Source: Marinobacterium aestuarii
GTDB taxonomy: Bacteria > Pseudomonadota > Gammaproteobacteria > Pseudomonadales > Balneatricaceae
Reading direction: 5' to 3'
DNA: 64,000 bases
Assembly (NCBI RefSeq): GCF_001651805.1
Contig: NZ_CP015839.1
Location: forward strand, 372,001-436,000
The position numbers and the translations under genes were made by a program. Under the pieces are notes generated by a model. It made no database searches. It was not told the DNA's origin and saw only the letters and a program-made list of their open reading frames with translations. Below are positions 14,744 through 31,081 of the stretch, one piece after another (position 1 is the first letter of the stretch; every line of letters begins with the position of its first letter).

Positions 14744-16358
14744 GGACCTGGCCTCCCAGTACGGTCGCAAGCACCGGTATATCACGCAGCCGGGCCGGAT
14801 CGACCCCGTAGGGGTCCTGCCCGAGTACCGCCATATCGGCGAACTTGCCGACTTCCAGACTGCCGACCAGGTGATCGAGTCGCAGCGTATAGGCGGCGCC
14901 CAGGGTGATCATGTCCAGCGCTTCGGCCACGCTGACCCTTTCGTGTTCGCCCAGTACCTGGCCGGATGCGCTCTGGCGCATCACGGCGCACCAGGCGGTG
15001 AACAGCGGCCCCAGGGGGGTGACGGGCGCATCGCTGTGGATGGCCGTCACTATGCCCAGGCGTCGCGCCGAGGCCAGGGGCTCGAGGCGGCGGCTGCGTT
15101 CAAACCCCAGGGTGCGTTCGCGGTGAATGTCGCCCCAGTAGTAAATATGGTTGGCAAACATGTTGAGGCACAGGCCAAGCTTGGCGGTGCGGCGCAGCTG
15201 GGCATGGTCGATGATCTGGCAGTGCTGCAGCGTATGGCGATGGTCGGCGCGGGGCCACAGCTCCAGTGCGCTTTCCACCGCATCCAGCATCAGCTCCACG
15301 GCTTCGTCGCCATTGGTATGGATATGCAGTTGCAGCCCGGCCTGGTGATAGACCTGCACCATGTTCATTAACGCATCGGGGGGCGCATTCCAGATGCCAT
15401 TGCCGTGGCCGTCGTGGTATCCAGGCCACTTCATGCGCGCCGTGTAGCCCTGGATCGAACCGTCGGTCATCATCTTGACCAGGCCAAAGTGCAGCTTGTC
15501 GTTGCCCAGTTCCAGGCACTGCTGCAGCCGCTCAACGCCCTGCTCCGGTGTCCAGGCCAGCGCACTCAGGGCCGGCACCAGCCGCGCCGGGAACTGCGGA
15601 TCCTGCGTGACCTGGCGCAGCGCGGCTATACCCTCATCGGTGAGCGGGTTGTAGAGATCGGTGATGGTCGTGACGCCGGCATTACGTGCCACCTGGCCAT
15701 AGCGGTAGAGGGTCTCGGGCGCCGCCACCGCCTCGAACAGGTTCGTGCCCAGGGTCTCGAAGATGGCGTGCATGGCCGCCATTTCCTGCAGTTCGCCGTT
15801 GGGCTGGCCGTCGTCGCCGAGCATGATGCCCTCGATGCCGGCGTGCCGATCGAGCTGTGACAGTGCCAGCATGCGGCTGTTGACGGTCATAACGTGCAGG
15901 TTGGCGTGCATGATCACCACTGGGCGGTTATCCACAGCGGCATCGAGCTGGCGGCGGTCAATGCGATCGTCCTCGAAGTAAACCGGGTCAAAGCCCCAGG
16001 CGATCAGCGGCGCGTCGGGCGCGAGTTCTGCTGCGGCCTCGCGCAGGCACTGCTGCATGGCCTCGATGCTGCTGGCGCCCTCCCAGCGTCGGCCATCGGG
16101 GTCGGTGCGGGGGAAATACCCCAGATACAGGTAGTCCCACATGGCGCCTTCCAGCGCATGGCTGTGGCCCTCGACAAAGCCCGGCAGGATAATATTGTCG
16201 GCAAAACGCTCATCCAGGCTGTAGTCCCCCAGTTCCTGCATGGATTCCAGCGGCCCCACTGCCAGCACGCGACCATCGCGCACGGCTATATGGCTGGCTT
16301 GGGGTTGCGACGGGTTCATGGTGATGATGCGCCTGGCGGCAAAGACGGTAATGGACAT
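14730..16358 (-). CDS. YtcJ-type metal-dependent amidohydrolase
   Basis: This 542-aa member of the amidohydrolase superfamily has the characteristic early strand followed by GHSHALEG, with metal-ligand histidines 65 and 67. It ends with a composite beta domain (VGSLEVGKFADMAVLGQDP). Family members hydrolyse amides such as N-substituted formamides or cyclic amides; the substrate here cannot be told from the sequence. The ATG directly follows the stop of the upstream symporter gene (TAA then ATG), with AAGGAG inside that gene. The link to a GltS-type carrier hints that an acidic or N-acylated amino compound is imported and cleaved (inference). Confidence 0.88.
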   Translation of the reverse strand: MSITVFAARRIITMNPSQPQASHIAVRDGRVLAVGPLESMQELGDYSLDERFADNIILPGFVEGHSHALEGAMWDYLYLGYFPRTDPDGRRWEGASSIEAMQQCLREAAAELAPDAPLIAWGFDPVYFEDDRIDRRQLDAAVDNRPVVIMHANLHVMTVNSRMLALSQLDRHAGIEGIMLGDDGQPNGELQEMAAMHAIFETLGTNLFEAVAAPETLYRYGQVARNAGVTTITDLYNPLTDEGIAALRQVTQDPQFPARLVPALSALAWTPEQGVERLQQCLELGNDKLHFGLVKMMTDGSIQGYTARMKWPGYHDGHGNGIWNAPPDALMNMVQVYHQAGLQLHIHTNGDEAVELMLDAVESALELWPRADHRHTLQHCQIIDHAQLRRTAKLGLCLNMFANHIYYWGDIHRERTLGFERSRRLEPLASARRLGIVTAIHSDAPVTPLGPLFTAWCAVMRQSASGQVLGEHERVSVAEALDMITLGAAYTLRLDHLVGSLEVGKFADMAVLGQDPYGVDPARLRDIPVLATVLGGQVHANR

Positions 16359-17768
16359 TTAGCAGGGCTCCTTGATCGGGTTTGCGGATGCCTGGCCGGC
16401 CTTTGGGCGGCGTTTCATCAGTAGTGGCACGCAGGCGAGGAAGAACAGTGCCGTGCCGCCGAACACCATCAGGTAGGTCCAGCCGCCGAGGGAGGGCACC
16501 AGCGGGGCAAAAACGAACAGGATGTGAAAGTTAGTGACGATGATCGCCAGGTTGAAGAACGCCAGTTCCTTGGGGACCGAGGTGCTGAAGTTGGCATCCA
16601 TCATGCGTAACAGCAGCAGACCGGTGCCGGTGGAGCCGCAGCAGCAGCCGAAGGCGGTGATGGCCCTTTCGCGGCCAAGGTTGCCACTGAGGCGGCCGAG
16701 AAACAGGCAGCCAATCAGCGTGGTGACGGTTACGGCGAGCGTAACCAGCAAAATGGGGGTCAGCAGAGCGTAGAGCACGGCAAACTTGATGCTCATCAGG
16801 GTACCGACCACCATGAAGTCCACCGACGAGCCGGTAATGCGTTTCAGGGTTTCGTCATCGACCCGGTGCGACAGACCCAGGCGGTCTATGGCCAGGCGCA
16901 GCAGCACGCAGACCGCCAGCCCGTGGAGGAAAAACAGGTTGTAGCTGAAGAGTACCGACAGGTTGATACCGCCGGGCTTAAAGTCCGCCACGACCGGCTG
17001 CATGGCGCCGAGCCAGATATAGGTCAGCACATAGGCCAGGGCCAGCAGCCCCAGGTGGTAGGCGAAGGAGTCGAGGTTGGCCGGGTGCGAGATCATGTGA
17101 CCGCTGACGGGCTTGTGTTCATCAGAGTAAAAACCGGCTGTGAAGTCATCGTCGATATTGGAGGCCTTGTTGGCATTCAGGCCGCGGCGGATAAAGTTCT
17201 TCGCCATGGGCACACCCACCAGAAAGGCCACCAGAAAGCCGAGAGAGGCGTAGATCAGGCCTACCTGGGCGGCATTCTCAATGCCGTATTCCTTTTCCCA
17301 GATGCCGCCGTAGGTCAGCGCCTGGCCTGGCCCCTGGGTAAAGCCATGGGTGATGATGGCGCCGAGCCATTCGCTTACGCCGGCGCCGGTCAGGGCGTCA
17401 TAGCCCGCGATGACGCCATAGCCGATCACGCCCTGCAGCCCCAGACTGATGCTCCATATCAGTGTCAGCCAGAGTCCGCCACGCACGATACTACCGCCGG
17501 ACAGGGATGCATCCTTGCTGTTGCCAGTCAGGCACAGGGACATGAAACTCAGGGTGAAAAAGTGGAAGGTCAGGGCCGTGAAGTCGGCCGTACTGAAGCC
17601 CGGAATCAGTTCCAGCGACAGCAGAATAAAGCCCAGCAGGCCGCCGATAATGCTGGCCGGAACCAGCGAATTGCGCAGCAGGCCGATACGGTTGCGCAGC
17701 AGGCTGCCACACAGCAGCATGCTGGCGAGCAGCGCGAAGGCGATAACGCCGTGAAAGGTACTTCCCAT
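16359..17768 (-). CDS. GltS-family sodium/glutamate-type symporter
   Basis: This integral membrane carrier (469 aa, about 10-12 helices) is related to sodium:glutamate symporters. Two inverted-repeat halves are visible, with a glycine-rich re-entrant segment (HGFTQGPGQALTYGG) near the middle and FGCCCGSTGTGLLLLRMMDANF in the second half. It is the first gene of a three-gene operon with the amidohydrolase and GTPase. GAGG lies 6 bases upstream of its ATG. It is divergent from the LysR gene at 18004, which may control it. Substrate specificity is unknown. Confidence 0.8.
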   Translation of the reverse strand: MGSTFHGVIAFALLASMLLCGSLLRNRIGLLRNSLVPASIIGGLLGFILLSLELIPGFSTADFTALTFHFFTLSFMSLCLTGNSKDASLSGGSIVRGGLWLTLIWSISLGLQGVIGYGVIAGYDALTGAGVSEWLGAIITHGFTQGPGQALTYGGIWEKEYGIENAAQVGLIYASLGFLVAFLVGVPMAKNFIRRGLNANKASNIDDDFTAGFYSDEHKPVSGHMISHPANLDSFAYHLGLLALAYVLTYIWLGAMQPVVADFKPGGINLSVLFSYNLFFLHGLAVCVLLRLAIDRLGLSHRVDDETLKRITGSSVDFMVVGTLMSIKFAVLYALLTPILLVTLAVTVTTLIGCLFLGRLSGNLGRERAITAFGCCCGSTGTGLLLLRMMDANFSTSVPKELAFFNLAIIVTNFHILFVFAPLVPSLGGWTYLMVFGGTALFFLACVPLLMKRRPKAGQASANPIKEPC

Positions 17769-18003
17769 GATGAGCCTCGTCTGTCTGGTTTTTTCTGTTT
17801 TTATTGTGAAAACGAATCAGCGTACTAAGCCTGGTCGGCAAGGAAGGCGCCCATGCGCCCTCTATCTATGACCTCCAATTGCTAGATGGATCACCTGCAT
17901 CGACGGGGGTAAACCTGTGTGCCGGTGTTATTTCAAAGTAGAGGATTTAATATGACTTGTATAATATCGTTTTGATAACAAATGATGCTTTAGGGGTATC
18001 AAT
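17769..18003. promoter_or_regulatory. Divergent promoter region between GltS-type operon and LysR gene
   Basis: This 235-base spacer carries the start regions of two divergent units. A perfect TATAAT occurs at 17960-17965, but I see no well-spaced -35. The sequence TTGTATAA (17957-17964) followed by TGATAACAAA (17973-17982) recurs in similar form upstream of the permease gene (TTGTATAA 18951-18958, TGATAGTAAA 18964-18973). This suggests a shared operator for the adjacent LysR regulator. The rest shows no gene. Confidence 0.45.
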
Positions 18004-18897
18004 ATGCGAATCGACCTGCGTCACCTGCGCGCCTTTGAAGCAGTGGCTGAAGAGCTGCACTTTCGTCGTGCCGCTGAGCGTCTCAACCTGGCCCAACCGG
18101 CGCTGAGCCGCACTATCCAGCAGCTGGAAGAGTTCATAGGTGAGGCGCTGTTGCTGCGCACCAACAGGCGTGTCGAGCTGACGGAAGCCGGTCGGGTCTT
18201 TCTGGCCGAGAGCAAAGCCATTTTCGCGCGCCTGGACAGCGCCGTGCAGCAGGCCCGCAAGGCCGCCGCCGGGCATATAGGTCAGCTGCGTATTGGTTAC
18301 ACCGACTTTGCCGTATCAGGTCAGCTGCCCCCCATTCTGGACGGCTTTCACCGCCGCTATCCCGACATCCGTACCGAACTGATTTATGGCTCCACCCGGC
18401 AGCAGCTGGAAAAGCTCAAGGAAGGTGCTATTGAGTTTGGTTTTGTGACGGGGCCGCTGCTGGAGCCTGATCTGGATCGTGCCGTGGTACAGCGTGATCG
18501 CTTCGTCGCCGTGCTGTCGCTGCGCCACCCCCTGGCAGGGCAGGCAGAGGTGGAACTGGCGGATCTGGCCCGGGAGCCCTTTGTGCTCGGGATCATGCGG
18601 CGCTGGTCCCATTACCGGCGCCAGCTCGATGCGCTCTGCATTGCGGCAGGCTTCCTGCCCAATGTCGCCCAGGAGGCGTATAACAGTGAGGGTGTGTTCG
18701 GCTTTGTGGCGGCCAATATTGGTGTGACCGTGCATCTTGAAAGTGCCGGCAGCTTCAGCCGCAAAGGGGTGGTGTTGCGCCCGCTCAAGGGGGTGACGGC
18801 TCGCGTCTGCACCGAAGCGGTCTGGGTCAGGGCCGGTGTTACGCCGGTGCAGCAGAAGTTTATCGATTTCCTGCAGGCCTGGTCGCCGCCGGACTGA
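18004..18897 (+). CDS. LysR-family transcriptional regulator
   Basis: This 297-aa regulator has an N-terminal winged helix-turn-helix (LRAFEAVAEELHFRRAAERLNLAQPALSRTIQQLEE, about residues 7-42) and a C-terminal periplasmic-binding-like effector domain (about 90-290). AGGGG lies 7 bases before ATG 18004. It sits between a divergent GltS-type/amidohydrolase operon and a downstream permease/GS-like operon, and LysR proteins commonly control such neighbours. Shared TTGTATAA-type sequences in front of itself and of the permease support control of the latter. Confidence 0.93.
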   Translation: MRIDLRHLRAFEAVAEELHFRRAAERLNLAQPALSRTIQQLEEFIGEALLLRTNRRVELTEAGRVFLAESKAIFARLDSAVQQARKAAAGHIGQLRIGYTDFAVSGQLPPILDGFHRRYPDIRTELIYGSTRQQLEKLKEGAIEFGFVTGPLLEPDLDRAVVQRDRFVAVLSLRHPLAGQAEVELADLAREPFVLGIMRRWSHYRRQLDALCIAAGFLPNVAQEAYNSEGVFGFVAANIGVTVHLESAGSFSRKGVVLRPLKGVTARVCTEAVWVRAGVTPVQQKFIDFLQAWSPPD

Positions 18898-19164: not shown

Positions 19165-20598
19165 ATGACAGAGATGACGACCGCTTCGGTGGGGTATGAG
19201 TCCGTTTCCAGCGACTACCTCGACAAGCGCCAGCTCAAGAAAGGTGCCGCCGGCTGGATATTGCTGGCGAGCCTTGGAGTGTCTTATGTGATTTCCGGCG
19301 ACTTTGCCGGCTGGAATTTTGGTCTCGGGCAGGGCGGCTTTGGCGGTATGCTGATCGCCACCGTCCTGATGGCGCTGATGTACAGCTGCAAGGTGCTGGC
19401 GCTGGCCGAGCTGTCGGCCTCGCTGCCCACCGCTGGCGGCGGCTACAGCTTTGCCCGCCGGGCTCTGGGCCCCTGGGGCGGCTACCTGACCGGCACTGCC
19501 ATCCTGCTGGAATATGCCATTGCACCGGCCGCCATCGCGATCTTTATCGGTGGCTATGTCAACGAGCTGTTCGGGCTCGATGGCCCGCTGGTCTATGCCG
19601 CTTTCTATGCGGTCTTTATCGGCATTCACCTCTGGGGTGCCGGTGAGGCGCTGAAAATCATGATGGTGATTACCGGCCTGGCCGTGGCCGCCATTCTGGT
19701 GTTTATCATCGGCACCCTGCCGTATTTCAGTGTCGATAACCTGTTCGATATCAGCGTCAATACGGCCGCGGCCGGGGCCAGCAGCTTTCTGCCCGAGGGT
19801 TATATAGGTATCTGGGCGGCGCTGCCCTTTGCCATGTGGCTGTTTCTGGCGGTAGAGGGCGTGCCCCTGGCGGCGGAGGAGTGCAAGAATCCGGCGAAGG
19901 ACATGCCCCGCGGCATCATCACCGCCATGGCCGTGCTGCTGGTGTTCGGCATTCTGGTGCTGTTTCTGGCGCCCGGTGTGGCCGGTGCCGATCTGATGAA
20001 GGATCACGGCGCACCGCTGGTGGGCGCGCTCCAGGCGGTTTACGGTGAAGACTCGGGGGCGGCGACCTTCGTCAACCTGGTGGGGCTGTTCGGCCTGATC
20101 GCATCCTTCTTTTCCATTATCTATGCTTATTCACGCCAGGTGTTCGCACTGTCCCGCGCCGGTTATCTGCCGCGCTGGCTGTCGGTGACCGGCAAGAACA
20201 AGGTGCCGACCCTGGCGCTGGTGGTACCGGGCCTGATCGGTTTTGGACTGTCCCTGACCGGCGAGGGGGACCTGATGATCACCATGGCGGTGTTCGGCGC
20301 AACCATTTCCTATGCCTTGATGACGCTGTCCCACATGATCCTGCGCCGCAAGGAGCCGAATCTGGAACGCCCCTACAGGACCCCGGGCGGCTCTGTGACC
20401 TCCGGTATCGCTTTTGTACTCTCTATTGCGGCCTTCGCCTCCACCTTTCTGGTGAGCACGGAAGCGGCCATCTGGAGCGGTGTCTTCTATGCGGTGATGG
20501 TGGCCTATTTCGCCTTTTACAGTCGCCATCGACTGGTGGCCCGGGCGCCGGAGGAAGAGTTTGCAGCCATTGCACGGGCTGAATCCGAATTGAGCTGA
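19165..20598 (+). CDS. APC-family permease, ethanolamine permease (Eat) type
   Basis: This amino acid/amine permease has 477 aa and about 12 membrane helices. Its N-terminus (DYLDKRQLKKGAAGWI...GVSYVISGDFAGWNFGLGQGG) and the stretch TAGGGYSFARRALGPWGG...TAILLEYAIAPAAIAIFIG are the pattern I associate with Eat-type ethanolamine permeases of pseudomonads. AGAGGG precedes ATG 19165. It heads an operon with a GS-like ligase, two dehydrogenases and a glutaminase-like protein. This supports uptake of ethanolamine or another amino alcohol or amine, but another APC substrate is possible. Confidence 0.85.
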   Translation: MTEMTTASVGYESVSSDYLDKRQLKKGAAGWILLASLGVSYVISGDFAGWNFGLGQGGFGGMLIATVLMALMYSCKVLALAELSASLPTAGGGYSFARRALGPWGGYLTGTAILLEYAIAPAAIAIFIGGYVNELFGLDGPLVYAAFYAVFIGIHLWGAGEALKIMMVITGLAVAAILVFIIGTLPYFSVDNLFDISVNTAAAGASSFLPEGYIGIWAALPFAMWLFLAVEGVPLAAEECKNPAKDMPRGIITAMAVLLVFGILVLFLAPGVAGADLMKDHGAPLVGALQAVYGEDSGAATFVNLVGLFGLIASFFSIIYAYSRQVFALSRAGYLPRWLSVTGKNKVPTLALVVPGLIGFGLSLTGEGDLMITMAVFGATISYALMTLSHMILRRKEPNLERPYRTPGGSVTSGIAFVLSIAAFASTFLVSTEAAIWSGVFYAVMVAYFAFYSRHRLVARAPEEEFAAIARAESELS

Positions 20599-20610
20599 GG
20601 ACGGGCGTCA

Positions 20611-20631
20611 CGCAGGCCGCAGCGGCCTGCG
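20611..20631 (+). other. Stem-loop between permease and GS-like gene
   Basis: CGCAGGCCG-CAG-CGGCCTGCG is a perfect 9-bp stem with a 3-base loop, not followed by a T-run. It is probably an mRNA processing or stabilising hairpin rather than a terminator. Confidence 0.5.
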
Positions 20632-20653
20632 GACACGACAATAAAAACCGGGG

Positions 20654-20668
20654 GCTGATGCGTTCAGC
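20654..20668 (+). other. Second stem-loop before the GS-like gene
   Basis: GCTGA-TGCGT-TCAGC, with flanking G-run and C-run that could extend it, lies about 20 bases before the ATG and ends close to the GAGGA ribosome site. It could modulate translation of the ligase. Confidence 0.4.
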
Positions 20669-20688
20669 CTTCCCCGAGGACAGGCAAG

Positions 20689-22068
20689 ATGATGAATCCC
20701 AGAGATGTAAAAACGATCGCCGATGCCAAACGTATCGTGGAAGAGCGCGGCCTGCGCGACGTCAAGGTGGGCCTCTATGATGTCGATGGCATCATGCGTG
20801 GCAAGTACATGTGCAAGGACAAGTTTTTCAGTGCGCTGGACAGCGGCTTTGCCTTCTGCGATGTGGTGCTGGGCTGGGATTCCAATGACCAGCTGTATGA
20901 GAATGTCGGCGTCAAATACACCGGCTGGCACACCGCCTACCCGGATGCGCCGGTGCGGGTACTGCCCCACACCTGCCGCGAGCTGCCGTTCGAAAAGGAC
21001 ATGCTGCTGTTTATCTGCGAGTTCGATACCCCGGCCGACAGCATCTGTCCGCGCAACCTGCTGCAGCGGGTACTCAAGCGGGCCGACCGGCTGGGCTTTG
21101 AGTCTTATGCCGCCTTTGAGTACGAATTTTTTCTGTTCAACGAGACACCTGACTCGATCCGCGAAAAGGGTTATCGCGATCTGAAACCCATTACCCCGGG
21201 CTTTCATGGCTATTCGATGCTGCGCAACTCCGTGCACGCCGAGCTGTACCACGACCTGCTGGAGTTCTCACGGCAGATGGATTTCCCCATTGAGGGCCTG
21301 CATACCGAAACCGGCCCGGGCGTACTGGAAGCCGCGTTGATTGTGGATAACGCCTCGGATGCGGCCGACAAGGCGGCGCTGTTCAAGACCTTCACCAAGG
21401 TCTGGGCGCAGCGCAACAACATGATGGCCACTTTCATGGCCAAGTGGTCCAACGACTACCCGGGCCAGTCGGGGCATATCCACATGTCACTCAAGCACAA
21501 GGATGGCTCCGGTTCGGTGTTCCATGACCCCACGCAACCGCACAATATGAGTCGGCAGCAGCGTCACTTTATCGGCGGCCAGCAGAAACTGATGCCACAG
21601 CTGCTGGCCATGATGGCGCAGACGGTGAATGCCTATTCGCGCCTGGTGCCGGGCTTCTGGGCGCCGACCGATGCGACCTGGGCGGTGGAGAACCGGACCA
21701 CGGCGCTGCGGGTAATTCCGGGTTCCGAGAAATCCCAGCGGGTGGAGTTCCGTCTCGGCTCCGCTGACGCCAACCCCTATATCGCCCTGGCGGCGGCGCT
21801 GGGCGCAGGGCTCTGGGGTATCGAAAACGAAGTTGAACCCGAAGCCGCCGTGCAGGGCAATGCCTACACCCAGCCCCATCCCGACAGCCTGGCGCTGCCA
21901 CTATCCCTGCATGAGGCCGCCGTGGCGCTGCGCGAATCCGAGGCGGCGAAAGAGCTGTTCGGCGAGGCCTTTGTCGAGCATTACGCCGCCACCCGGGTGT
22001 GGGAATGCCAGGAGTACCGCAAGCATGTGAGCGACTGGGAACTGCAGCGGTACTTCGAAATTATCTAA
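20689..22068 (+). CDS. Glutamine-synthetase-like gamma-glutamyl amine ligase
   Basis: This 459-aa member of the glutamine synthetase superfamily has the catalytic half intact. Metal-binding glutamates are at 144 and 146 (EYEFF), 207 (TETGPG) and 214, with His263 in SGHIHMSL and the ATP/glutamate-binding segment around NRTTALRVIPG. The N-terminal domain is divergent from ammonia-using GlnA, and the tyrosine adenylylation site is not evident. Such proteins (PuuA, PauA, IpuC, GlnA4 types) ligate glutamate to an amine. Given the Eat-type permease and downstream alcohol and aldehyde dehydrogenases, gamma-glutamyl-ethanolamide is a reasonable product (inference). Two start ATGs are adjacent; GAGGA fits either. 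Confidence 0.87.
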   Translation: MMNPRDVKTIADAKRIVEERGLRDVKVGLYDVDGIMRGKYMCKDKFFSALDSGFAFCDVVLGWDSNDQLYENVGVKYTGWHTAYPDAPVRVLPHTCRELPFEKDMLLFICEFDTPADSICPRNLLQRVLKRADRLGFESYAAFEYEFFLFNETPDSIREKGYRDLKPITPGFHGYSMLRNSVHAELYHDLLEFSRQMDFPIEGLHTETGPGVLEAALIVDNASDAADKAALFKTFTKVWAQRNNMMATFMAKWSNDYPGQSGHIHMSLKHKDGSGSVFHDPTQPHNMSRQQRHFIGGQQKLMPQLLAMMAQTVNAYSRLVPGFWAPTDATWAVENRTTALRVIPGSEKSQRVEFRLGSADANPYIALAAALGAGLWGIENEVEPEAAVQGNAYTQPHPDSLALPLSLHEAAVALRESEAAKELFGEAFVEHYAATRVWECQEYRKHVSDWELQRYFEII

Positions 22069-22092
22069 GCATTGCCGTTATCCGCTGATCCG

Positions 22093-22106
22093 CCCGTTGC
22101 GACGGG
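22093..22106 (+). other. Stem-loop between ligase and aldehyde dehydrogenase genes
   Basis: CCCGT-TGCG-ACGGG is a short perfect hairpin in the 63-base spacer. No T-run follows. Confidence 0.4.
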
Positions 22107-22131
22107 TGCCTGAATTGAGACGAGTATTGAT

Positions 22132-23523
22132 ATGAGCAAACAGCTGAAAACCCTGTCACCGATCGATGGCTCCGAATACGTGGTGCGTGACTACGCCACG
22201 ACAGCCCAGATAGAGGCGACGCTGGCCCGCGCCGCCGCTGCCCAGAAAGCCTGGAAACGCACCCCGCTTGAAGAGCGCATGGCGCTGTGCAGCCGCATGG
22301 TGGATGCCTTTGTCGCCCGCAAGGACGAGATCGCGCTGGAGCTGTGCTGGCAGATGGGCCGGCCCATCCGCTATGCCGCCGGTGAAGTGGGCGGTCTTGA
22401 AGAGCGGGCCCGCTACATGATATCGGCCGCCGCCGAGGCGCTGCAGCCGATTCAGCTGCCGGAAAAGACCGGTTTCAGTCGCTATATCACCCGTGAAGCC
22501 CTGGGCGTGGTGTTCGTGATTGCCCCCTGGAACTTTCCCTACATGACGGCGGTGAATGCCATTATTCCGGCGATCCTGGCGGGCAACAGCGTGATTTTGA
22601 AACATTCCGCCCAGACGCCGCTCTGTGCCGAGCGCTTCGCCGAAGCCTTCGCCGCCGCCGGCCTGCCGGAGGGCGTGTTCCAGTACCTGCACCTGGCCCA
22701 CGGCGATACCCAGGGCCTGATCCAGGACGAACGTATCAGCCATGTCTGCTTTACCGGCTCAGTGCCGGGGGGCGAAATGGTGGAGCGGGCCGCGGCAGGG
22801 CGCTTTATCGGCGTCGGACTTGAGCTTGGCGGCAAGGACCCGGCCTATGTGCGGGCCGATGCGGACCTGGATCATGCGGTGGAAACCACAGTCGACGGTG
22901 CCTTTTTCAACTCCGGCCAGTCCTGCTGCGGCATTGAGCGCATCTATGTGCACGAATCGCTGTATGAACGTTTCGTCGAGCAGGCAGTGGCGCTGGTCAA
23001 GGCCTATAAACTGGGGCGCTCCGATGATCCCGACACCACCCTGGGGCCGGTGGTACGGGCCAGCGCTGCCGACTTTATCCGCGGCCAGGTGAGCGAGGCG
23101 GTTGCCGCCGGCGCAGTGGCCCATATAGATGCCGCCGACTTCCCGCTGGATGCCCCCGGCAGCGCCTATCTGGCGCCCCAGGTGCTGACGAACGTGAACC
23201 ACGGCATGCGCGTCATGACGGAGGAAACCTTTGGGCCCGTCGTCGCCATCCAGAAGGTCAGCTCGGATGAAGAGGCCCTGGCACTGATGAATGACTCCGA
23301 GTTCGGCCTGACCGCCTCGGTGTTTACCCGCGATATCGACGCCGGCGTCGCCATTGGGGAGCAACTGGAGACAGGTACCTTCTTCATCAACCGCTGCGAC
23401 TACCTGGATCCGGCCCTGGCCTGGACCGGCGTGAAAAACTCCGGCCGTGGCTGCACCCTGTCGAGCGTCGGATTTGAGCACCTGACCAGGCCCAAGTCGT
23501 TCCATCTGAAGACCGAAATCTGA
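22132..23523 (+). CDS. NAD(P)-dependent aldehyde dehydrogenase
   Basis: This 463-aa member of the ALDH superfamily has PWNFP (oxyanion Asn134), the general base Glu231 in LELGGKDP, and catalytic Cys265 in NSGQSCC, followed by a second Cys. The length is a little short for the family but complete. It lies between the gamma-glutamyl ligase and the iron alcohol dehydrogenase. I infer that it oxidises a gamma-glutamylated amino aldehyde to the acid, for example gamma-glutamyl-aminoacetaldehyde to gamma-glutamylglycine. A free aldehyde substrate is the alternative. Confidence 0.93.
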   Translation: MSKQLKTLSPIDGSEYVVRDYATTAQIEATLARAAAAQKAWKRTPLEERMALCSRMVDAFVARKDEIALELCWQMGRPIRYAAGEVGGLEERARYMISAAAEALQPIQLPEKTGFSRYITREALGVVFVIAPWNFPYMTAVNAIIPAILAGNSVILKHSAQTPLCAERFAEAFAAAGLPEGVFQYLHLAHGDTQGLIQDERISHVCFTGSVPGGEMVERAAAGRFIGVGLELGGKDPAYVRADADLDHAVETTVDGAFFNSGQSCCGIERIYVHESLYERFVEQAVALVKAYKLGRSDDPDTTLGPVVRASAADFIRGQVSEAVAAGAVAHIDAADFPLDAPGSAYLAPQVLTNVNHGMRVMTEETFGPVVAIQKVSSDEEALALMNDSEFGLTASVFTRDIDAGVAIGEQLETGTFFINRCDYLDPALAWTGVKNSGRGCTLSSVGFEHLTRPKSFHLKTEI

Positions 23524-23539
23524 GCGCCCAACCGATTCC

Positions 23540-23564
23540 GGTGACCGGCCAGCGGCCGGGCACC
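23540..23564 (+). other. Stem-loop between aldehyde and alcohol dehydrogenase genes
   Basis: The arms GGTGACCGGCC and GGCCGGGCACC pair with one mismatch around AGC. There is no T-run. It resembles the hairpins in the other spacers of this operon. Confidence 0.45.
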
Positions 23565-23577
23565 TCAAGCTGAGAAT

Positions 23578-24753
23578 ATGACCATGAACTACGAAAATCT
23601 GAGCGGCAACTGGAACTACCCCAGCAGCATTCGCGCCGGCGCCGGCCGTATCAACGAACTGGCCGAGTGCTGCAGGGCGCAGGGCATGCAGGCGCCGCTG
23701 CTGATCACGGATCCTGGCCTGGCGGCGCTGCCGATGGTGGCCGAGGCCGAAGCGCAGTGCCGGGCTGCGGGCTTGCGCATTGGCCTGTTCAGCGAGATCA
23801 AGGGCAACCCCACCGGCAGGAACGTCGATGATGGCCTGGCGGCCTACCGGGCGGGCAAGCACGACGGCGTTATCGCCTTTGGTGGGGGCTCTGCGCTGGA
23901 TGCCGCCAAGGCCGTGGCGCTGATGGCAGGCCAGACGCTGGAACTGTGGGACTTCGAGGATGTGGGCGACAACTGGACCCGCGTCAACGCCGAGGGTGTG
24001 GCGCCCATAGTGGCGGTGCCGACCACCGCCGGTACCGGCTCCGAAGTGGGCCGCGCCTCGGTGATCACCGATGACGCACAGCATATCAAGAAGATCATTT
24101 TCCACCCCAAGATGCTGCCGGGCATCGTAATTCTGGACCCTGTGCTGACTGTCGGCCTGCCGCCCAAGGTCACCGCAGCCACCGGCATGGATGCGCTGTC
24201 CCACAACCTGGAAGCGCTCTGCTCGCCGTTCTGGCATCCCATGGCCGAGGGCATTGCCATCGAAGGCATTCGCCTGGTGCGTGAATTTCTGCCCCGTGCC
24301 GTGGCCGATGGCACGGATCTGGAGGCGCGGATGCAGATGATAGTGGCGTCCTCCATGGGAGCGACGGCCTTTCAGAAGGGCCTCGGTGGCATGCACGCCC
24401 TGGCCCATCCGCTGGGGGCGCTGTTCGATGCCCATCACGGCCTGCTCAATGCCATCCTGATGCCCTATGTGCTCAAGGCCAACCGTGAAGTGGTGACGCA
24501 GCGTCTCGAGCGCACAGCCCGCTATATCGGCCTGGCCGATGCGAGCTTCGATGGCTTCCTCAACTGGGTTCTGCAGCTGCGTGCCCAGGTGGGTATCCCC
24601 CATAGCCTGGGCGAAATCGGCATTGATGAGAGTGCGCTTGAAAAAATCGGTCGCATGGCCACCGAGGATCCGTCCGCCGGTGGCAACCCGATTCAGTTCA
24701 GCGCCGAGCAGTACAGCGCGCTCTGTGGTCGCGCCATTCGTGGCGAGCTCTGA
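23578..24753 (+). CDS. Iron-containing alcohol dehydrogenase
   Basis: This 391-aa group III dehydrogenase has the NAD-binding FGGGSALDAAK (101-111) and PTTAGTGSEVGR motifs. Metal-ligand candidates are Asp205 and His209 (GMDALSHNLEA), His273 (GGMHALAH) and His287 (DAHHG). In this operon it would oxidise the hydroxyl of the gamma-glutamylated amino alcohol to an aldehyde ahead of the neighbouring ALDH (inference). Two starts, ATG 23578 and ATG 23584, are possible, with only a weak ribosome site. Confidence 0.92.
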   Translation: MTMNYENLSGNWNYPSSIRAGAGRINELAECCRAQGMQAPLLITDPGLAALPMVAEAEAQCRAAGLRIGLFSEIKGNPTGRNVDDGLAAYRAGKHDGVIAFGGGSALDAAKAVALMAGQTLELWDFEDVGDNWTRVNAEGVAPIVAVPTTAGTGSEVGRASVITDDAQHIKKIIFHPKMLPGIVILDPVLTVGLPPKVTAATGMDALSHNLEALCSPFWHPMAEGIAIEGIRLVREFLPRAVADGTDLEARMQMIVASSMGATAFQKGLGGMHALAHPLGALFDAHHGLLNAILMPYVLKANREVVTQRLERTARYIGLADASFDGFLNWVLQLRAQVGIPHSLGEIGIDESALEKIGRMATEDPSAGGNPIQFSAEQYSALCGRAIRGEL

Positions 24754-24780
24754 TTCGCGGATAGATAACGGGAGGTCGTG

Positions 24781-25485
24781 ATGAAAATTGGCATTTTGCA
24801 GTGCGATGACGTGCAGGAGCAGCTGCAGCCGGCGTTCGGCAACTATCCGCAGATGTTTCGCGACCTGATGCTGCGGGTCGATCCGCAGCTTGAGTTTGCG
24901 GTCTACGACGTGCGGCTCGGTGAGCTGCCGGTCGATATCGACGAGTGCGATGCCTATATCACCTCCGGCAGCCGGCACGGTGTGCTGGACGGCCTGGCCT
25001 GGGTGGCGGAGCTGGAAGGCTTTGTCCGGCGCCTGGATGCCGGCAAGAAGAAATTTGCCGGTATCTGCTTTGGCCATCAGCTGCTGGCCCGGGCGCTGGG
25101 CGGAGAGGTCGAAAAATCACAGCGGGGCTGGGGTGTAGGGGTGTCGTTCAACCAGGTCGATAGTCGCAAGGCCTGGATGGAGCCGTACAAGCCCGCTATC
25201 GACCTGGTGGTCAGTCATCAGGACCAGGTGAGCGCACTACCCGAGGGGTTTGAGGTGCTGGCCAGCAGCGCCTTCTGCCCCTACTACATGCTGCAGTACC
25301 AGGATCATATGCTCAGTGTGCAGGGTCATCCCGAGTTCTCCAGAGACTATTCCCGTGCGCTGACCCTGAGCCGGCAGAACCGGATTCCACCGAACCGGGT
25401 ACGTGAAGCTCTGCACTCACTCAGCGCCGAGGTCGATGATCTGCTGGTGATGCGCTGGATTATTAATTTCTTTTACGACCGCTAG
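24781..25485 (+). CDS. Class I glutamine-amidotransferase-like gamma-glutamyl hydrolase
   Basis: This 234-aa GATase1 domain protein has the nucleophile Cys96 in GICFGHQ and the His183/Glu185 pair in VQGHPEFS. There is no synthetase partner domain, so it likely acts alone as a hydrolase that removes the gamma-glutamyl group, the last step of the pathway encoded here. I chose ATG 24781 rather than the in-frame GTG at 24778 because GGAGG at 24771-24775 is correctly spaced for the ATG. It ends the operon and is followed by a strong hairpin. Confidence 0.88.
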   Translation: MKIGILQCDDVQEQLQPAFGNYPQMFRDLMLRVDPQLEFAVYDVRLGELPVDIDECDAYITSGSRHGVLDGLAWVAELEGFVRRLDAGKKKFAGICFGHQLLARALGGEVEKSQRGWGVGVSFNQVDSRKAWMEPYKPAIDLVVSHQDQVSALPEGFEVLASSAFCPYYMLQYQDHMLSVQGHPEFSRDYSRALTLSRQNRIPPNRVREALHSLSAEVDDLLVMRWIINFFYDR

Positions 25486-25654: not shown

Positions 25655-26605
25655 CTATTCCAGCTTGATTTGCGGCAGCAGCCAGTCATATTCGGCGCCG
25701 ATTTCGGCCACAAAGCTGTCTTGCAGAATGCGCCGGCAGTCGCGGGCGATCATGCCGGGCAGGTCGCCCAGTTCACCCTTGCGGGTGGTGAGGGTGATCT
25801 CGCGGGCAAAGCCATGACCCAGGGGCAGCAGGGTAACCTGATGCTGGCGAATGCCGCTCTGGAACAGGCACAGCGGTGTGGTGATGGTGCAACCGATATT
25901 GCTGGCCACGGCGGAAACCACGGCGAAGGAATTGTCGAGCTGCAGGCGCAGCGGCGGTTCCTGGCGCGCCAGGCGCAGGAAGCGCTCCACATCCTGGCCG
26001 ATCAGCGAGCTGGTGCTATAGCGGATAAAGTCCAGTCGCTGCAGTACGTCGGCCAGGGTCTTGGGGCCTGTGTAGTCGTTGGGTACCGCCAGCACGAAGG
26101 GTTCCTTCAGAATGCGATGGCGGTCCAGGTCCGAGTGATCGGCCAGGGGGTCATCGGAAATGATGATGTCCGCCTGGCGTGACAGCAGCATATGGGCATG
26201 CAGGTGGGATTGCCCGGTGATGGCGGCCCAGCTCTGGGTACGCTGGCGCAGAACGTCGATCAGGGGCTTGCCCACGGCGGTGATGATGGAATCCACCAGG
26301 GCGATCTTCACATGGCGCAGCAGCTTGTAGTCGGCTTTGCGCATTTTCTGGCTGGTAAGGCGGGCTTCCTGCAGCAGGCTCTGGGCGCGGTCGTACAGGT
26401 AGCGCCCGGCGGTGGTGATCTCCATGGGCCTGACGCTGCGATCCATCAGCTCGACGCGCATCTCGGCTTCCAGGTTGGTAAGCATCTGCGACAGCGATGA
26501 TTGGCTCATGCCCAGGCGCTGGCCAGCCAGGGTCAGGTTGCCGGTTTCGGCGATCTGGACGAAAGCCTCCAGGGTACGCAGGTCAAAGCCGAAGGAAGAC
26601 GACAT
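25655..26605 (-). CDS. LysR-family transcriptional regulator
   Basis: This 316-aa regulator has an N-terminal helix-turn-helix (TLEAFVQIAETGNLTLAGQRLGMSQSSLSQMLTNLEAEM) and a C-terminal effector-binding domain. AAGGG lies about 6 bases before the ATG. It is convergent with the GATase-like gene. It lies 128 bases downstream of the racemase-family gene on the same strand, so it may be read with that operon or from its own promoter. Its target is unknown; the racemase/DadA/TRAP operon is the best candidate. Confidence 0.92.
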   Translation of the reverse strand: MSSSFGFDLRTLEAFVQIAETGNLTLAGQRLGMSQSSLSQMLTNLEAEMRVELMDRSVRPMEITTAGRYLYDRAQSLLQEARLTSQKMRKADYKLLRHVKIALVDSIITAVGKPLIDVLRQRTQSWAAITGQSHLHAHMLLSRQADIIISDDPLADHSDLDRHRILKEPFVLAVPNDYTGPKTLADVLQRLDFIRYSTSSLIGQDVERFLRLARQEPPLRLQLDNSFAVVSAVASNIGCTITTPLCLFQSGIRQHQVTLLPLGHGFAREITLTTRKGELGDLPGMIARDCRRILQDSFVAEIGAEYDWLLPQIKLE

Positions 26606-26733: not shown

Positions 26734-27465
26734 TCAGGGGCGCCAGGCGGGTTGGCCTGCATGGGTCAGGGTGCTGGCCACCATGCGGGTCAGGCTGCTG
26801 AGGTCAAACACCGGCAGGGCAAAGCGGGCCTGCAGTCTCTGCGAGAAGCAGGACAGGTCGGTGCATTCGAGCACCAGGGCACCGATTTCGGGGTGGCGCT
26901 CGAGCAGGGTGCTGATAACGCCGGTCAGTTCGGCTTCGAACAGCGTCATGTCGAGATCCTGGCCGTTGCCCTGAAGAATCACGTCACGGAACTGGGGCTG
27001 GTGCTGCATGCCGGCAATGGCGACCGGTTCAGCACCAATGCCGGCACCGCGCAGGTGGTCTTCGCTGAGGGCCTCGCTGTTGGCGACTATGACGCCCACC
27101 CGGCGTTGTGGTCCCAGCATGCGCGAAACCAGCGGCACCTGAATCAGGCTGGAAAGAAACACCGGCACCGACACCGCCGCGGCTATGTCCTGCTGATGCA
27201 GTGCCAGAAAGCCGCAGCTGCCGGTAATCGCCCGTACGCCTTCACGTTCCAGCTCCCGTGCCGCATCGATAAAGGGTTGCAGCAGGGCGGGGTCACGCTG
27301 GCGGATCAGTCGGTCGATGGTGGCACCCTGTACCGTTTTGTACAGCAGCGGGAAGTTAAAGCCCGCCGGGTTCTTGATATGCCCCAGGGGTTTGGGAAAG
27401 CGGGATTCCAGGCTGAGCACGCCAATGGGAATACCGTAGTAGTTCTGGCCGCCGCGCAGCATCAT
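26734..27465 (-). CDS. Aspartate/glutamate/hydantoin racemase-family protein
   Basis: This 243-aa cofactor-independent racemase-type protein has two conserved Cys, one in each half: Cys84 in ITGSCGFLALHQ and Cys201 in LECTDLSCF. They are the expected acid/base pair. AGGAG lies 9 bases before ATG 27465. It sits in an operon with a DadA-type D-amino acid dehydrogenase and a TRAP transporter. Interconversion of L and D forms of an imported amino acid or related compound is therefore likely, but the true substrate and reaction are unknown. Confidence 0.8.
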   Translation of the reverse strand: MMLRGGQNYYGIPIGVLSLESRFPKPLGHIKNPAGFNFPLLYKTVQGATIDRLIRQRDPALLQPFIDAARELEREGVRAITGSCGFLALHQQDIAAAVSVPVFLSSLIQVPLVSRMLGPQRRVGVIVANSEALSEDHLRGAGIGAEPVAIAGMQHQPQFRDVILQGNGQDLDMTLFEAELTGVISTLLERHPEIGALVLECTDLSCFSQRLQARFALPVFDLSSLTRMVASTLTHAGQPAWRP

Positions 27466-27540
27466 GTGATTTATCTCCTGTGTGAGAGTAGGTGTTGCGA
27501 ACCGAGTCCTGAGCGAGCAGCAGGCGTGCCAGTGCCGGCA

Positions 27541-28809
27541 TCAGGCGAACCGCTCCGGCGCAAAGGGTGTCAGATCGATATCCGTGGGCTGATCCGAAAT
27601 CAGCTGGCAGACCAGTTGTCCGGTAATGGCGGCCAGTGTCAGGCCGAGATGACCATGGCCAAATGCCAGGGTCACGCGGGGCTGGGCTTTGAGCGTACCG
27701 ATTACCGGCAGCGAATCCGGTGTTGAAGGCCGGCTGCCCATCCAGCTGGATTTCACCTGGGTGTGCCTTCCGAGCATTCTGTCGGCATGTGTGTGCATCA
27801 GCGCACTGCGGCGCTCATCCGGCGGCGCCTGGCAGGCGGCAAACTCGGCAGTGCCGGCCACCCGTATGCCATCGCTCATGGGGGTCAGGAAAATGCCCTG
27901 ATCCAGCCACCCCACCGGGCGCGTCAGGGTATCGCTGGGCAGATCCAGCGTCAGGTGATAACCGCGCTCGGAGACCAGAGGCACCCGCACGCCACACTGG
28001 CCCGCCAGGGCCTTGGATGCGGCACCTGTGGCGATCACCAGGCGGTCAAACCGCAGCTGTTGCAGGCCACAGCGCAGTTCAACTGCGTCGGCATCGGCAT
28101 GGATCGAATCCACTTTCTGTTGCACAAAGCGCCCGTCCTGGTCACAAAAGTGGGTAAACAGGGCACGGCTGAGCGCCACCGGACTGACGGTATGGCGCGT
28201 TCTGGGATAGTAGACGCCGCCGGCATGAAAGCCGTTGAGGTTCGGCTCCAGCTGCTGCACCTGCGTGGCGCTAAGGAACTCCAGTTCCACACCCTGCTCG
28301 CGGCGTTCCCGCAGCCCCTGGGTGCGGGCCTGGGCAAAGCCCTCGGTGCTGCTAAATAGCCCAAGGCAGCCATGGGACTGCACCAGAGACTCTGTACCGG
28401 TGAGGGCCAGCAGGCTGCGGTCAGCTGCTGGAGCCAGCTCCTGCAGTGCGGTGAGCGCCTGCTTGCCGCGCCTGTAGCGGGACGGGAAGCAGGCCTTGAA
28501 GAAATGCCAGCCGTAGGGCATGAGCTGGGGCAGATAGCTCGGCTGCACCGACACCGGGCTCTGGGCATCGAGCAGCATGGCGGGCATCTTGCACAGCAGC
28601 GAAAAACTGGTGAAGGGCAGGCGGGCGTAGTCGGCGAAAAGACCGGCATTGCCAAAGGAAGTGCCGAGCCCGGGTTGAGCCTGGTCGATCAGGGTCACCC
28701 GGTGGCCGGCCCGCTGCAGCCAGAGGGCGCTGCACAGACCTATGATGCCGGCGCCGATCACGGCGACTTGGCGGACATCGCCGGCAGGCTGAGTGGGATG
28801 GTCGGACAT
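27541..28809 (-). CDS. FAD-dependent D-amino acid dehydrogenase-type oxidoreductase (DadA family)
   Basis: This 422-aa DAO-fold flavoprotein has the FAD-binding GAGIIG at residues 19-24 after a short extension and a C-terminal GHGHLGLTLAAITG segment typical of DadA-like enzymes. The family oxidises D-amino acids to 2-oxo acids and ammonia, passing electrons to the respiratory chain. AGGTGA precedes the start. Its place between the TRAP permease and a racemase suggests an import-racemise-oxidise pathway. A sarcosine-type or other amine substrate remains possible. Confidence 0.87.
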   Translation of the reverse strand: MSDHPTQPAGDVRQVAVIGAGIIGLCSALWLQRAGHRVTLIDQAQPGLGTSFGNAGLFADYARLPFTSFSLLCKMPAMLLDAQSPVSVQPSYLPQLMPYGWHFFKACFPSRYRRGKQALTALQELAPAADRSLLALTGTESLVQSHGCLGLFSSTEGFAQARTQGLRERREQGVELEFLSATQVQQLEPNLNGFHAGGVYYPRTRHTVSPVALSRALFTHFCDQDGRFVQQKVDSIHADADAVELRCGLQQLRFDRLVIATGAASKALAGQCGVRVPLVSERGYHLTLDLPSDTLTRPVGWLDQGIFLTPMSDGIRVAGTAEFAACQAPPDERRSALMHTHADRMLGRHTQVKSSWMGSRPSTPDSLPVIGTLKAQPRVTLAFGHGHLGLTLAAITGQLVCQLISDQPTDIDLTPFAPERFA

Positions 28810-28880
28810 GAGTCACCTGCTGGCGCCCGTTGTGGGCGCGTCTATAGGGGGCGGGTGTGATGGCGGCTAGGTGACTGACG

Positions 28881-30965
28881 TCAGGAATTGGCGCAGCGCG
28901 CCGCCGGTGCCAGGGTTTCGTCCTGGCGCCGTGCCAGTAGCTGCTGCGCCAGTACCGGCAGCAGCAGGGCCAGACCGTAGAGGTCGGACTGCAGGCCCGG
29001 CGTGATCAGCGCTATGGCGGCGGCAAAGGTCAGCAGGCGGGGCAGCAGAGGCAGGTTGCGCAGCGCATAGCCGGTGATGGCGATACCGAACACGAAGATG
29101 CCCGCCATACAGCTAAAGGTGGTGAGCAGATACTCGGACCAGGTGAAGTAATCCTCCAGCACGATCAGCATGGCCGGCGAGTAGACGAACACGAATGGCA
29201 TCATGATCTTGGCGTTGCCGAGCTGGAAGGCCGATATGCCGGTACGAAACGGATTGGCATTGGCAATGCCGGCGGCGGCATAGGCCGAGGTGCACACCGG
29301 CGGGGTAATCTCCGACAGCACACCGTAATAGAGCACGAACAGGTGCGCCGCGAGCGCCGGAACACCCAGGTTAGACAGTGCCGGCTGTGCCACGGCACTG
29401 AGCATGATGTAGAGCGCGGCCGTGGGCAGGCCGGCCCCCATCAGGATGCAGGACAGCGCGATCAGCACCAGGGATACGAACAGGGTTGCCTGATCCAGTG
29501 AGAACAGTTCGAACGGCAGCCAGGTGGTCATGGCCATCAGCGACTCGCCTATATCCTGGGCGCCGCTGGTCACCAGAAAGCCGAGGCGAAAAGCCACGCC
29601 TGTGGTGGTGATGACACCCACCACTATGCCGACGGCCGAACAGGCCGCTCCCACCGCCAGGGCGTATTTGGCGCCTATCTTGAATGCATCGAAAATGTCG
29701 CCAAAGCCAATACGGTTGCGCGGGTTAAGCACCCCCACGGCCAGGCTGGCGGCGATACCGGAGAAGGCCGCCATATAGGGCGTAAAGCCACTGAAGAGTA
29801 CGCCGATCAGCACCACCAGTGGCAGCATGGTGGGCCAGCCGTCTTTCAGTACCGCCAGCAGATGGGGAATGTCCTCTTTGGCGCAGCCCTTGAGGCCGAG
29901 TTTCTTGGCCTTGAAGTGCACTATGGTCAGTACGCCAATGTAGTGCATGATGGCCGGTGTCATGGCGGCCAGCACTATGCTGCCGTAGGACATCTGCAGG
30001 TTCTCGGCCATGATAAAGGCCGCCGCGCCCATGATCGGCGGGGTAATCTGGCCACCGGCACTGGAAGCCGCCTCAACGCCGCCGGCAAAGTGGCCGGGGT
30101 AGCCGAGCTTTTTCATGTTGGGAATGGTCAGGGAGCCGGTCGAGACCGTATTGGCCACGGCGGAGCCCGAAATGGTGCCGAAAAAGGCCGATGAGACCAC
30201 GCTGACCTTGGCCGGGCCGCCGGAATAACGGCCGGCAACGATGGTGGCGATATCGATGAAGAACTGGCCCAGCCCCATGCGCTGGGCGATAACGCCAAAG
30301 AGCACAAAGTGGAACACCACGGTCGACACTACCCAGAGGGTAATGCCGAAGATGCCCTCGGCCGGGAAATAGATATTGTTGATGAACTGATTCCAGCTCA
30401 CGCCGGGGTGGCGCAGTATATCGAAGGGCAGGTACTGCCCGAAGAGCGCATAGCAGGCGAACAGAATAATGATCAGCGGCAGAACCGGGCCCAGGGTGCG
30501 GCGGGTTGCTTCCAGCACCAGGAACACCAGCAGGCTGCCAAATATGATATCCAACAGCGCCGGGTTTCCCTGACGCAGCGCCTGTTCGTCAAGCACCAGG
30601 CCAACGAAGCTCAGGTCCAGCCCCATCCAGGTGAAACCTATATAGAGGGATGCGACTACACTGAGGCCCGCCAGCACAAAATCGTACAGGGGTACGCGGC
30701 TGCTCTGGTCGGCGTTCTTGCGTTCCAGACACTTGAAGCCTGCGTAGTAGATAAAGATCATCGACAGCACGCCGGACAGGTGGATGCCCATGTGCCAGTA
30801 ATCGGCCGGCAGCCCGAAGCCCGCCGTGATGAAATGGTAGAGGGCGAACAGGGCTAACAGCACGCCGCAGACCTGTTCCAGTTTGCGCGGGAGCTTGCGG
30901 GTTTGCAGTTCGGAGTCGTACTGCTCTTCCAGCTCCTGCATCTGTTCGATACTGATCTTGTCCAT
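28881..30965 (-). CDS. TRAP transporter fused permease (small plus large subunit, TAXI type)
   Basis: This 694-aa integral membrane protein combines a DctQ-like N-terminal part with a DctM-like large domain, as in fused permeases working with TAXI binding proteins. A cytoplasmic coiled N-terminus (about 1-40) precedes many hydrophobic helices. Conserved GTISGSAVANTVSTGSLTIPNMKKLGY and GGQITPPIMGAAAFIMAE motifs are present. I chose the start at 30965 because GAGG lies 7 bases upstream; an in-frame start 36 bases earlier lacks a site. A 9-bp hairpin separates it from the binding-protein gene. Confidence 0.92.
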   Translation of the reverse strand: MDKISIEQMQELEEQYDSELQTRKLPRKLEQVCGVLLALFALYHFITAGFGLPADYWHMGIHLSGVLSMIFIYYAGFKCLERKNADQSSRVPLYDFVLAGLSVVASLYIGFTWMGLDLSFVGLVLDEQALRQGNPALLDIIFGSLLVFLVLEATRRTLGPVLPLIIILFACYALFGQYLPFDILRHPGVSWNQFINNIYFPAEGIFGITLWVVSTVVFHFVLFGVIAQRMGLGQFFIDIATIVAGRYSGGPAKVSVVSSAFFGTISGSAVANTVSTGSLTIPNMKKLGYPGHFAGGVEAASSAGGQITPPIMGAAAFIMAENLQMSYGSIVLAAMTPAIMHYIGVLTIVHFKAKKLGLKGCAKEDIPHLLAVLKDGWPTMLPLVVLIGVLFSGFTPYMAAFSGIAASLAVGVLNPRNRIGFGDIFDAFKIGAKYALAVGAACSAVGIVVGVITTTGVAFRLGFLVTSGAQDIGESLMAMTTWLPFELFSLDQATLFVSLVLIALSCILMGAGLPTAALYIMLSAVAQPALSNLGVPALAAHLFVLYYGVLSEITPPVCTSAYAAAGIANANPFRTGISAFQLGNAKIMMPFVFVYSPAMLIVLEDYFTWSEYLLTTFSCMAGIFVFGIAITGYALRNLPLLPRLLTFAAAIALITPGLQSDLYGLALLLPVLAQQLLARRQDETLAPAARCANS

Positions 30966-31001
30966 ACTGGACCTCGCATGGCCAGGTGAGTCCGGGTGCA
31001 T

Positions 31002-31028: not shown

Positions 31029-31081
31029 AACCGGTGCCGAGCAGGCTCAGACCGGGTGCGCGCTTAGTGTTGGGCGGTGGC

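Follow-up and report, generated by a model that had tools for sequence, protein, structure and literature searches.

A probable gamma-glutamyl route for ethanolamine in Marinobacterium aestuarii, with a distinct ligase and hydrolase around a shared oxidation module

The window analysed here is a stretch of 64,000 nucleotides from the genome of Marinobacterium aestuarii (contig NZ_CP015839.1, positions 372,001 to 436,000), which is complete (one contig of 5.19 Mb). At positions 19165-25485 it carries five adjacent open reading frames (ORFs) on the + strand, separated by intergenic gaps of 24-90 bases (Table 1). They encode an Eat-type permease, a glutamine synthetase (GS)-like ligase referred to here, with its orthologues, as GS1, an aldehyde dehydrogenase (ALDH), an iron alcohol dehydrogenase (Fe-ADH) and a stand-alone glutamine amidotransferase (GATase) of class I. 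An earlier note, made from the sequence alone, had read them as one operon that attaches glutamate to an amino alcohol, oxidises it twice and cleaves the product; the five ORFs were confirmed. Membrane lipid yields ethanolamine, from which both nitrogen and carbon can be obtained, and the operon probably encodes the conversion of this compound to glycine.

Table 1 Genes of the operon and the adjoining regulator gene (positions within the window; roles are predictions)
Feature	Position	Strand	Support and proposed role
Eat-type APC permease	19165..20598	+	TIGR00908 ethanolamine permease, 544.4 bits (cut-off 381.75); predicted ethanolamine uptake
GS-like ligase (GS1)	20689..22068	+	PF00120, 328.9 bits; proposed gamma-glutamylethanolamide synthetase
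Aldehyde dehydrogenase (ALDH)	22132..23523	+	PF00171, 424 bits; proposed gamma-glutamylacetaldehyde dehydrogenase
Iron alcohol dehydrogenase (Fe-ADH)	23578..24753	+	PF00465, 166 bits; proposed gamma-glutamylethanolamide dehydrogenase
Stand-alone GATase, class I	24778..25485	+	PF00117; proposed gamma-glutamylglycine hydrolase
LysR-type regulator	25655..26605	-	Homologue adjoins the operon in 14/63 named loci; predicted operon regulator

The two dehydrogenases connect the window to a known pathway. All 59 ALDH orthologues keep Asn134, Glu231 and Cys265, the last two already pointed out in the earlier note, and all 59 Fe-ADH orthologues keep Asp205, His209, His273 and His287, the presumed metal ligands. 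A pathway that turns ethanolamine into glycine, with gamma-glutamylethanolamide and gamma-glutamylglycine as intermediates and release of glutamate, is already published for Chromohalobacter, Agrobacterium and Phaeobacter, and for Streptomyces with the later steps proposed (PMC10132767, PMC6529630 and PMC9397018). The view of the earlier note that oxidation in two steps while bound to glutamate sets the operon apart is therefore not supported. In Phaeobacter the locus tags run in the order RpiR, gamma-glutamylglycine amidohydrolase (GGAH), EtoV, EtoW, EtoX, ethanolamine gamma-glutamylase (ETAGA), ALDH (GAADDH) and alcohol dehydrogenase (GETADH); the last genes of the operon are induced on phosphorylethanolamine, and EtoX binds ethanolamine at about 8 uM (PMC10132767). 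Fifty-one loci were fetched with the window Fe-ADH, and in 14 of them the order RpiR-FGase-DctM-EtoX-GS2-ALDH-FeADH matches the published one (FGase, N-formylglutamate-amidohydrolase-like; GS2, the known ethanolamine ligase subfamily; the small TRAP protein lies outside the query set of this comparison). The window ALDH is 53-62% and the window Fe-ADH 53-60% identical to the proteins of GS2 operons; against the 14 operons in Phaeobacter order the values are 55-59% and 53-58%. The link to Phaeobacter thus consists of gene order and identity: of the proteins of Phaeobacter sp. MED193 and C. salexigens (Csal) themselves, Csal_0678, by way of the PDB, is the one that enters the comparison. The shared gene order and the 53-59% identity indicate the roles of the two enzymes by homology, and on sequence comparison they belong to the families of the published ethanolamine gamma-glutamyl operon.

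The ligase is of another kind. Its metal residues, described as intact in the earlier note, are indeed conserved: Glu144, Glu146, Glu207 and Glu214 in 63/63 orthologues, His263 and Glu353 in 62/63, that is, in all whose alignments reach those positions. This assignment combines alignment to GlnA and PuuA with the usual GS numbering. The ammonium residues D50 and E327 of GS are absent, the E327 position being Trp324 in all 62 aligned orthologues. PauA7 also has a tryptophan at this position (W296) and the GlnA4 model a phenylalanine (F331), and the criterion used here for a ligase of the pathway, metal sites present with D50/E327 absent, comes from the same source (PMC6529630). GS1 shows this combination. 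Because it lacks D50 and E327, GS1 is not an ordinary GS by published criteria; it scores 213.6 bits against the GlnA model (cut-off 429) and also falls under the NCBIfam cut-off for type III GS. Nor is it a PuuA (182 bits against a cut-off of 650 for NF045547). Its identity is 30-32% to GS2, 37-38% to IpuC, 30% to PuuA and 25% to the host GlnA, and 96% to its counterparts in M. sedimentorum and M. profundum. A point missed by the earlier note is that, judged from sequence, GS1 lies outside the known ethanolamine ligase subfamily. The window protein matches PDB 5dm3, which we take to be Csal_0679, with 208 bits, against 632 for the GS2 of locus L113. In a tree of 43 rows, midpoint-rooted and with several long branches, GS1 and its distant kin form a supported clade separate from that of GS2; IpuC joins these two at a fork without clear branching order, and GlnA, PuuA and two paralogues from the host genome stand apart from the GS1/GS2/IpuC group.

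Other ligases of this kind were encountered in further contexts. A host GS-like ligase (L002, G000:C1:2606720-2610712; 30% identical to GS1, nearest to PuuA in the tree) adjoins an ALDH, a pair that probably belongs to polyamine catabolism. Locus L167 (G248:C22) combines a GS1 of 60% identity with a class III aminotransferase, an Fe-ADH (52%) and an SBD_N/NBD_C-type protein, and has no ALDH. Loci L126 (a Shinella plasmid) and L175 (G395:C4) share a distinct ligase, 41% identical to GS1, with PotD-type ABC transporters and an Fe-ADH 52% identical to that of the window; perhaps this is another glutamylated amino alcohol route.

The hydrolase also differs from that of the published operon. The residues Cys96, His183 and Glu185 named in the earlier note are present when numbered from the ATG at 24781 (Cys97, His184 and Glu186 from the GTG). 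The cysteine is kept in 36/36 orthologues, the histidine and the glutamate in 35/36, all whose alignments reach them. By sequence, the best match of solved structure is gamma-glutamyl peptidase 1 (E 1.9e-23), and the protein is proposed to be the gamma-glutamylglycine hydrolase. Its family is PF00117 and not the PF05013 of the FGase-like GGAH. The two ligase types were compared at loci whose flanks each measure at least 4.5 kb (68 GS1 loci out of 85, 43 GS2 loci out of 44); this flank rule excluded L083 (GS1 with an FGase-like gene) and L088 (GS1 with EtoX). GATase is found at 38/68 GS1 loci and 1/43 GS2 loci, FGase-like genes at 0/68 and 31/43, respectively. At GS1-type loci, FGase-like genes occur in L083 and, by annotation, in the plasmid locus L122 (51% ligase), and all four GS2 loci scanned (L113-L116) carry a PF05013 hydrolase.

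The importer of the window is an Eat permease, as the earlier note stated: it scores above the curated cut-off of TIGR00908 (544 bits against 382), and ethanolamine transport is predicted from this match. At other GS1 loci a different carrier is found. EtoX homologues occur at 12 of them, 11 being among the 68 flank-filtered loci, and the substrate-binding proteins beside the GS1 operons of a Vibrio sp. (L084) and of a genome of the same family as the host (L101) match PDB 4uab with 559 and 581 bits. This entry is Csal_0678 with bound ethanolamine (PMC12410723), so GS1 operons of Pseudomonas, Vibrio and others adjoin a close homologue of an ethanolamine-binding protein. When a quickly built GS1 tree (69 rows, 24 with Eat and 11 with EtoX) is used to trace the Eat/EtoX state, at least six changes are needed. 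Ethanolamine is thus indicated by two unrelated transporter families, Eat in the window and EtoX at orthologous loci, and presumably different carriers serve one substrate across GS1 operons.

Conservation of the gene set was followed in 63 named GS1 loci, obtained by a ligase-based scan with one genome per species and including loci truncated by contig ends. By clustering, the ligase is a counted ORF in 62 of them, ALDH and Fe-ADH are each present in 59, GATase in 36 and Eat in 22. Six of these 22 Eat proteins are only 40-41% identical to that of the window; their hosts are Steroidobacter relatives. Since ALDH and Fe-ADH each recur at 59 of the 63 loci, the set is more than a chance neighbourhood. 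GS1-type operons are found, among other hosts, in Marinobacterium, Pseudomonas, Photobacterium, Legionella and Microbulbifer.

The association of ligase and Fe-ADH was also examined in a sample of 398 genomes across the phylum (Fe-ADH at E <=1e-100, GS1 at E <=1e-110). Fe-ADH is present in 53 genomes, GS1 in 10, GS2 in 42, and one or other ligase in 52. A GS1 or GS2 gene is found in 51/53 genomes with Fe-ADH and 1/345 without it (Fisher p 8e-61, uncorrected for relatedness), the single ligase without Fe-ADH, in G454, having 44% identity. Nine of the 53 Fe-ADH genomes carry GS1, 42 carry GS2 and none carries both, for an expected overlap of 7.1 (probability of none 1.2e-8, again uncorrected for relatedness). 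This exclusion, although not absolute, is the pattern expected from ligase replacement within one pathway. At the 51 loci fetched from 54 Fe-ADH hits (the window, L106 and L116 were left out), a GS-like ligase lies within 9 kb in 47, while ALDH is missing from that range in 10. For the four others, GS1 is about 28 kb away in G102, GS2 is elsewhere in the genome of G110, and G186 and G235 have neither. The GS1 loci were retrieved through GS1, whereas most flank-filtered GS2 loci came from the Fe-ADH search, so that the Fe-ADH count of 41/43 for GS2 is not independent. Among 96 relatives searched, 28 carry GS1 (at least 60% identity), four GS2 and one an intermediate protein (G077, 47%). The ALDH of all four GS2 loci is 55-59% identical to that of the window. 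L113 and L116 have an Fe-ADH of 56% identity, L114 and L115 a GMC oxidoreductase instead; TRAP genes with an EtoX homologue accompany L113, L114 and L116, and ABC transporter genes L115. EutB, the marker of the ammonia-lyase route, is rarer in the 28 GS1 genomes than in the 68 others (2 against 24; one-sided p 0.003, uncorrected).

Taken together, the membership of the dehydrogenases in the published families, the Csal_0678-type binding proteins beside GS1 operons and the co-occurrence of Fe-ADH with a ligase support well the scheme of glutamylation, double oxidation and cleavage set out in the earlier note. We consider, with a probability of roughly 0.8, that the operon represents a gammaproteobacterial form of the published route of ethanolamine gamma-glutamylation: Fe-ADH and ALDH are shared, whereas ligase and hydrolase have been displaced. 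Eat would import ethanolamine, and GS1, using ATP, would form gamma-glutamylethanolamide from its amino group and the gamma-carboxyl group of glutamate. Fe-ADH would convert the hydroxyl of this compound to an aldehyde, which ALDH would oxidise, still glutamylated, to gamma-glutamylglycine; the GATase-type hydrolase would then free glycine and regenerate glutamate. Such a route would involve neither free acetaldehyde nor aminoacetaldehyde and would not require B12. Compared with the published operons, the ligase and hydrolase would come from other subfamilies or folds around a common oxidation module. Gene content, residues, conservation and association are direct observations, from which we infer each reaction step and the substrate. 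The host genome contains gcvP, and glycine should thus be usable. The B12-dependent eut ammonia-lyase route was rejected for this host, EutB giving no match in its complete genome.

Several observations weigh against this interpretation. Neither Eat nor EtoX lies near GS1 in 34/68 flank-filtered loci, and GATase is missing from 30/68. Four loci (L104, L107, L109 and L112) contain GS1 orthologues or near relatives (46-67%) without Fe-ADH or ALDH, and their scanned neighbours have no common theme. Genome G041, from outside the 398-genome sample, has both GS1 and GS2, the GS2 locus being accompanied by a GMC oxidoreductase. In G186 (L142, 6069-10489), Eat, ALDH and Fe-ADH are consecutive although the genome lacks both GS1 and GS2; in this exceptional case a different ligase may be involved, or no ligase at all. 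Two GS1 genomes also encode EutB; the absence of eutBC that the earlier note had put forward as a check is thus a tendency and not a rule. Two loci inside the GS1 clade have other surroundings: L122 has a class III aminotransferase, an FGase-like gene and polyamine-type ABC transporter genes but no Fe-ADH, and L167 has a class III aminotransferase nearby. Because of these, members of the clade may differ in substrate. With identities of only 30-31% to GS2 and 37% to IpuC, the substrate cannot be read from orthology, and sequence alone cannot separate ethanolamine from other small amines. The role of GS1 as gamma-glutamylethanolamide synthetase is accordingly a proposal based on comparison.

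The same chemistry might act on another small primary amino alcohol, L-alaninol or serinol, and lead to alanine or serine. GS1 is nearer to IpuC of the isopropylamine/alaninol route than to GS2, and the Csal_0678 sequence has a second PDB entry, 4xf5, whose ligand we take to be 2-amino-1-propanol. However, such a substrate appears unlikely in view of the ethanolamine permease score of Eat and of the ethanolamine binding by EtoX (PMC10132767); moreover, 20 proteins encoded near GS1 were scanned at 14 loci, a minority of all neighbours, and none of them is an enzyme of alanine or serine catabolism.

A polyamine or aminopropanol pathway, in which GS1 would be a PauA/PuuA-type ligase and the dehydrogenases would act on polyamine-derived gamma-glutamyl intermediates, is quite improbable. 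PuuA falls outside the GS1/GS2/IpuC group (with the long branches mentioned), putrescine catabolism offers no step at which an Fe-ADH would oxidise a terminal alcohol, and the five genes include neither a transaminase nor a PuuB-like oxidase. In favour of such a pathway, the GS1 relatives of L122 (51%), L126 (41%) and L167 (60%) have class III aminotransferases or ABC transporters of polyamine type as neighbours, L122 and L167 lie within the GS1 clade, and in L052 an arginine decarboxylase gene is found just upstream of GS1. Finally, Fe-ADH and ALDH might oxidise free ethanolamine or an unrelated alcohol, leaving only nitrogen handling to the ligase and the GATase. The gene arrangement of G186 would agree with this, as would G235, where Fe-ADH has no such ligase or ALDH alongside and the genome lacks both GS1 and GS2. 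The near-constant company of GS1 or GS2 in Fe-ADH genomes (51/53), a tie far stronger than that to any single transporter, makes this explanation very improbable.

The ethanolamine variant can be placed among several described systems. The oxidation module of the operon of Phaeobacter sp. MED193 and C. salexigens recurs in the window, along with a GS-like ligase, an importer predicted to be dedicated to ethanolamine and a putative hydrolase of gamma-glutamyl compounds; the window differs in its GS1 ligase, in a GATase instead of an FGase-like hydrolase, in Eat instead of a TRAP transporter and in LysR instead of RpiR (PMC10132767). For the GlnA4 cluster of Streptomyces coelicolor (SCO1610-1615), identical intermediates are proposed, and GlnA4 lacks D50/E327 like GS1, but a short-chain dehydrogenase stands where the window has Fe-ADH. 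In the paper on this cluster, the legend of Fig. 2 names orf5 as a glutamine amidotransferase, which may be a precedent for the GATase, whereas the discussion places SCO1615 in the formylglutamate amidohydrolase family (PMC6529630). The isopropylamine cluster of Paenarthrobacter aurescens TC1 encodes IpuC, a GS-like ligase (37.7%) from the wider group to which GS1 belongs, together with an ALDH, a short-chain dehydrogenase and glutamine amidotransferases; unlike the window, it has a cytochrome P450 with ferredoxin and no Fe-ADH, its ALDH is 34% identical and its amidotransferase 28% over partial length. The E. coli Puu pathway (PuuA, PuuC, PuuD) follows the same logic of ligase, ALDH and hydrolase on a gamma-glutamyl carrier. 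However, PuuA is 30% identical to GS1 and PuuC only 31.5% to the window ALDH, PuuD does not match the GATase at E 1e-8, and PuuB is an amine oxidase rather than an alcohol dehydrogenase. The short Eat-eutBC ethanolamine operon shares Eat, while the host genome has no EutB.

Chemistry and pathway are therefore known, and the novelty lies in the make-up of the parts, the GS1 subfamily and the GATase hydrolase. A literature search confined to open-licence papers yielded no account of Eat and a GATase in combination with a ligase of the GS1 type. It is reasonably probable that GS1 and GATase form a second, independently recruited synthetase/hydrolase pair, which replaced the known one around the Fe-ADH/ALDH core in many Gammaproteobacteria, and that surveys based on the known ligase or EtoX miss much of it. 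An ocean survey counted ethanolamine users by the TRAP protein EtoX, and about 94% of its hits were Alphaproteobacteria (PMC10132767); operons with GS1 and either Eat or no recognised transporter would escape such counts. The case suggests a fixed middle oxidation module with exchangeable uptake, entry and exit enzymes.

The LysR gene downstream of the operon likely encodes its regulator, as we infer from homologues that recur beside the operon, downstream or upstream of eat depending on the locus. The upstream LysR gene (18004-18897) was rejected for this role: a close homologue (97%) adjoins the operon in only 1/63 named loci (L037). A scan for promoters and terminators was uninformative (1 promoter-like and 7 terminator-like sites, against shuffle means of 1.7 and 5.3). 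Within 13760-18897, genes for a CobW-type GTPase, an amidohydrolase family 3 protein and a GltS-like symporter lie on the - strand, divergent from the upstream LysR gene, whose product probably controls these genes and not the ethanolamine operon. Elsewhere in the host genome, one gcvP copy is a single frame of 1009 amino acids (3249716-3251884), and a second gcvP-like gene (G000:C1:5162866-5163938) is split into two open frames (842 and 71 amino acids) and is perhaps broken. On the other side of the operon, genes on the - strand at 26734-32089 encode, in a row, an Asp/Glu-racemase-like protein, a DAO-type D-amino acid dehydrogenase-like protein, a TRAP DctM protein and a binding protein of the NMT1 type; this looks like a separate cluster for amino acid uptake and oxidation.

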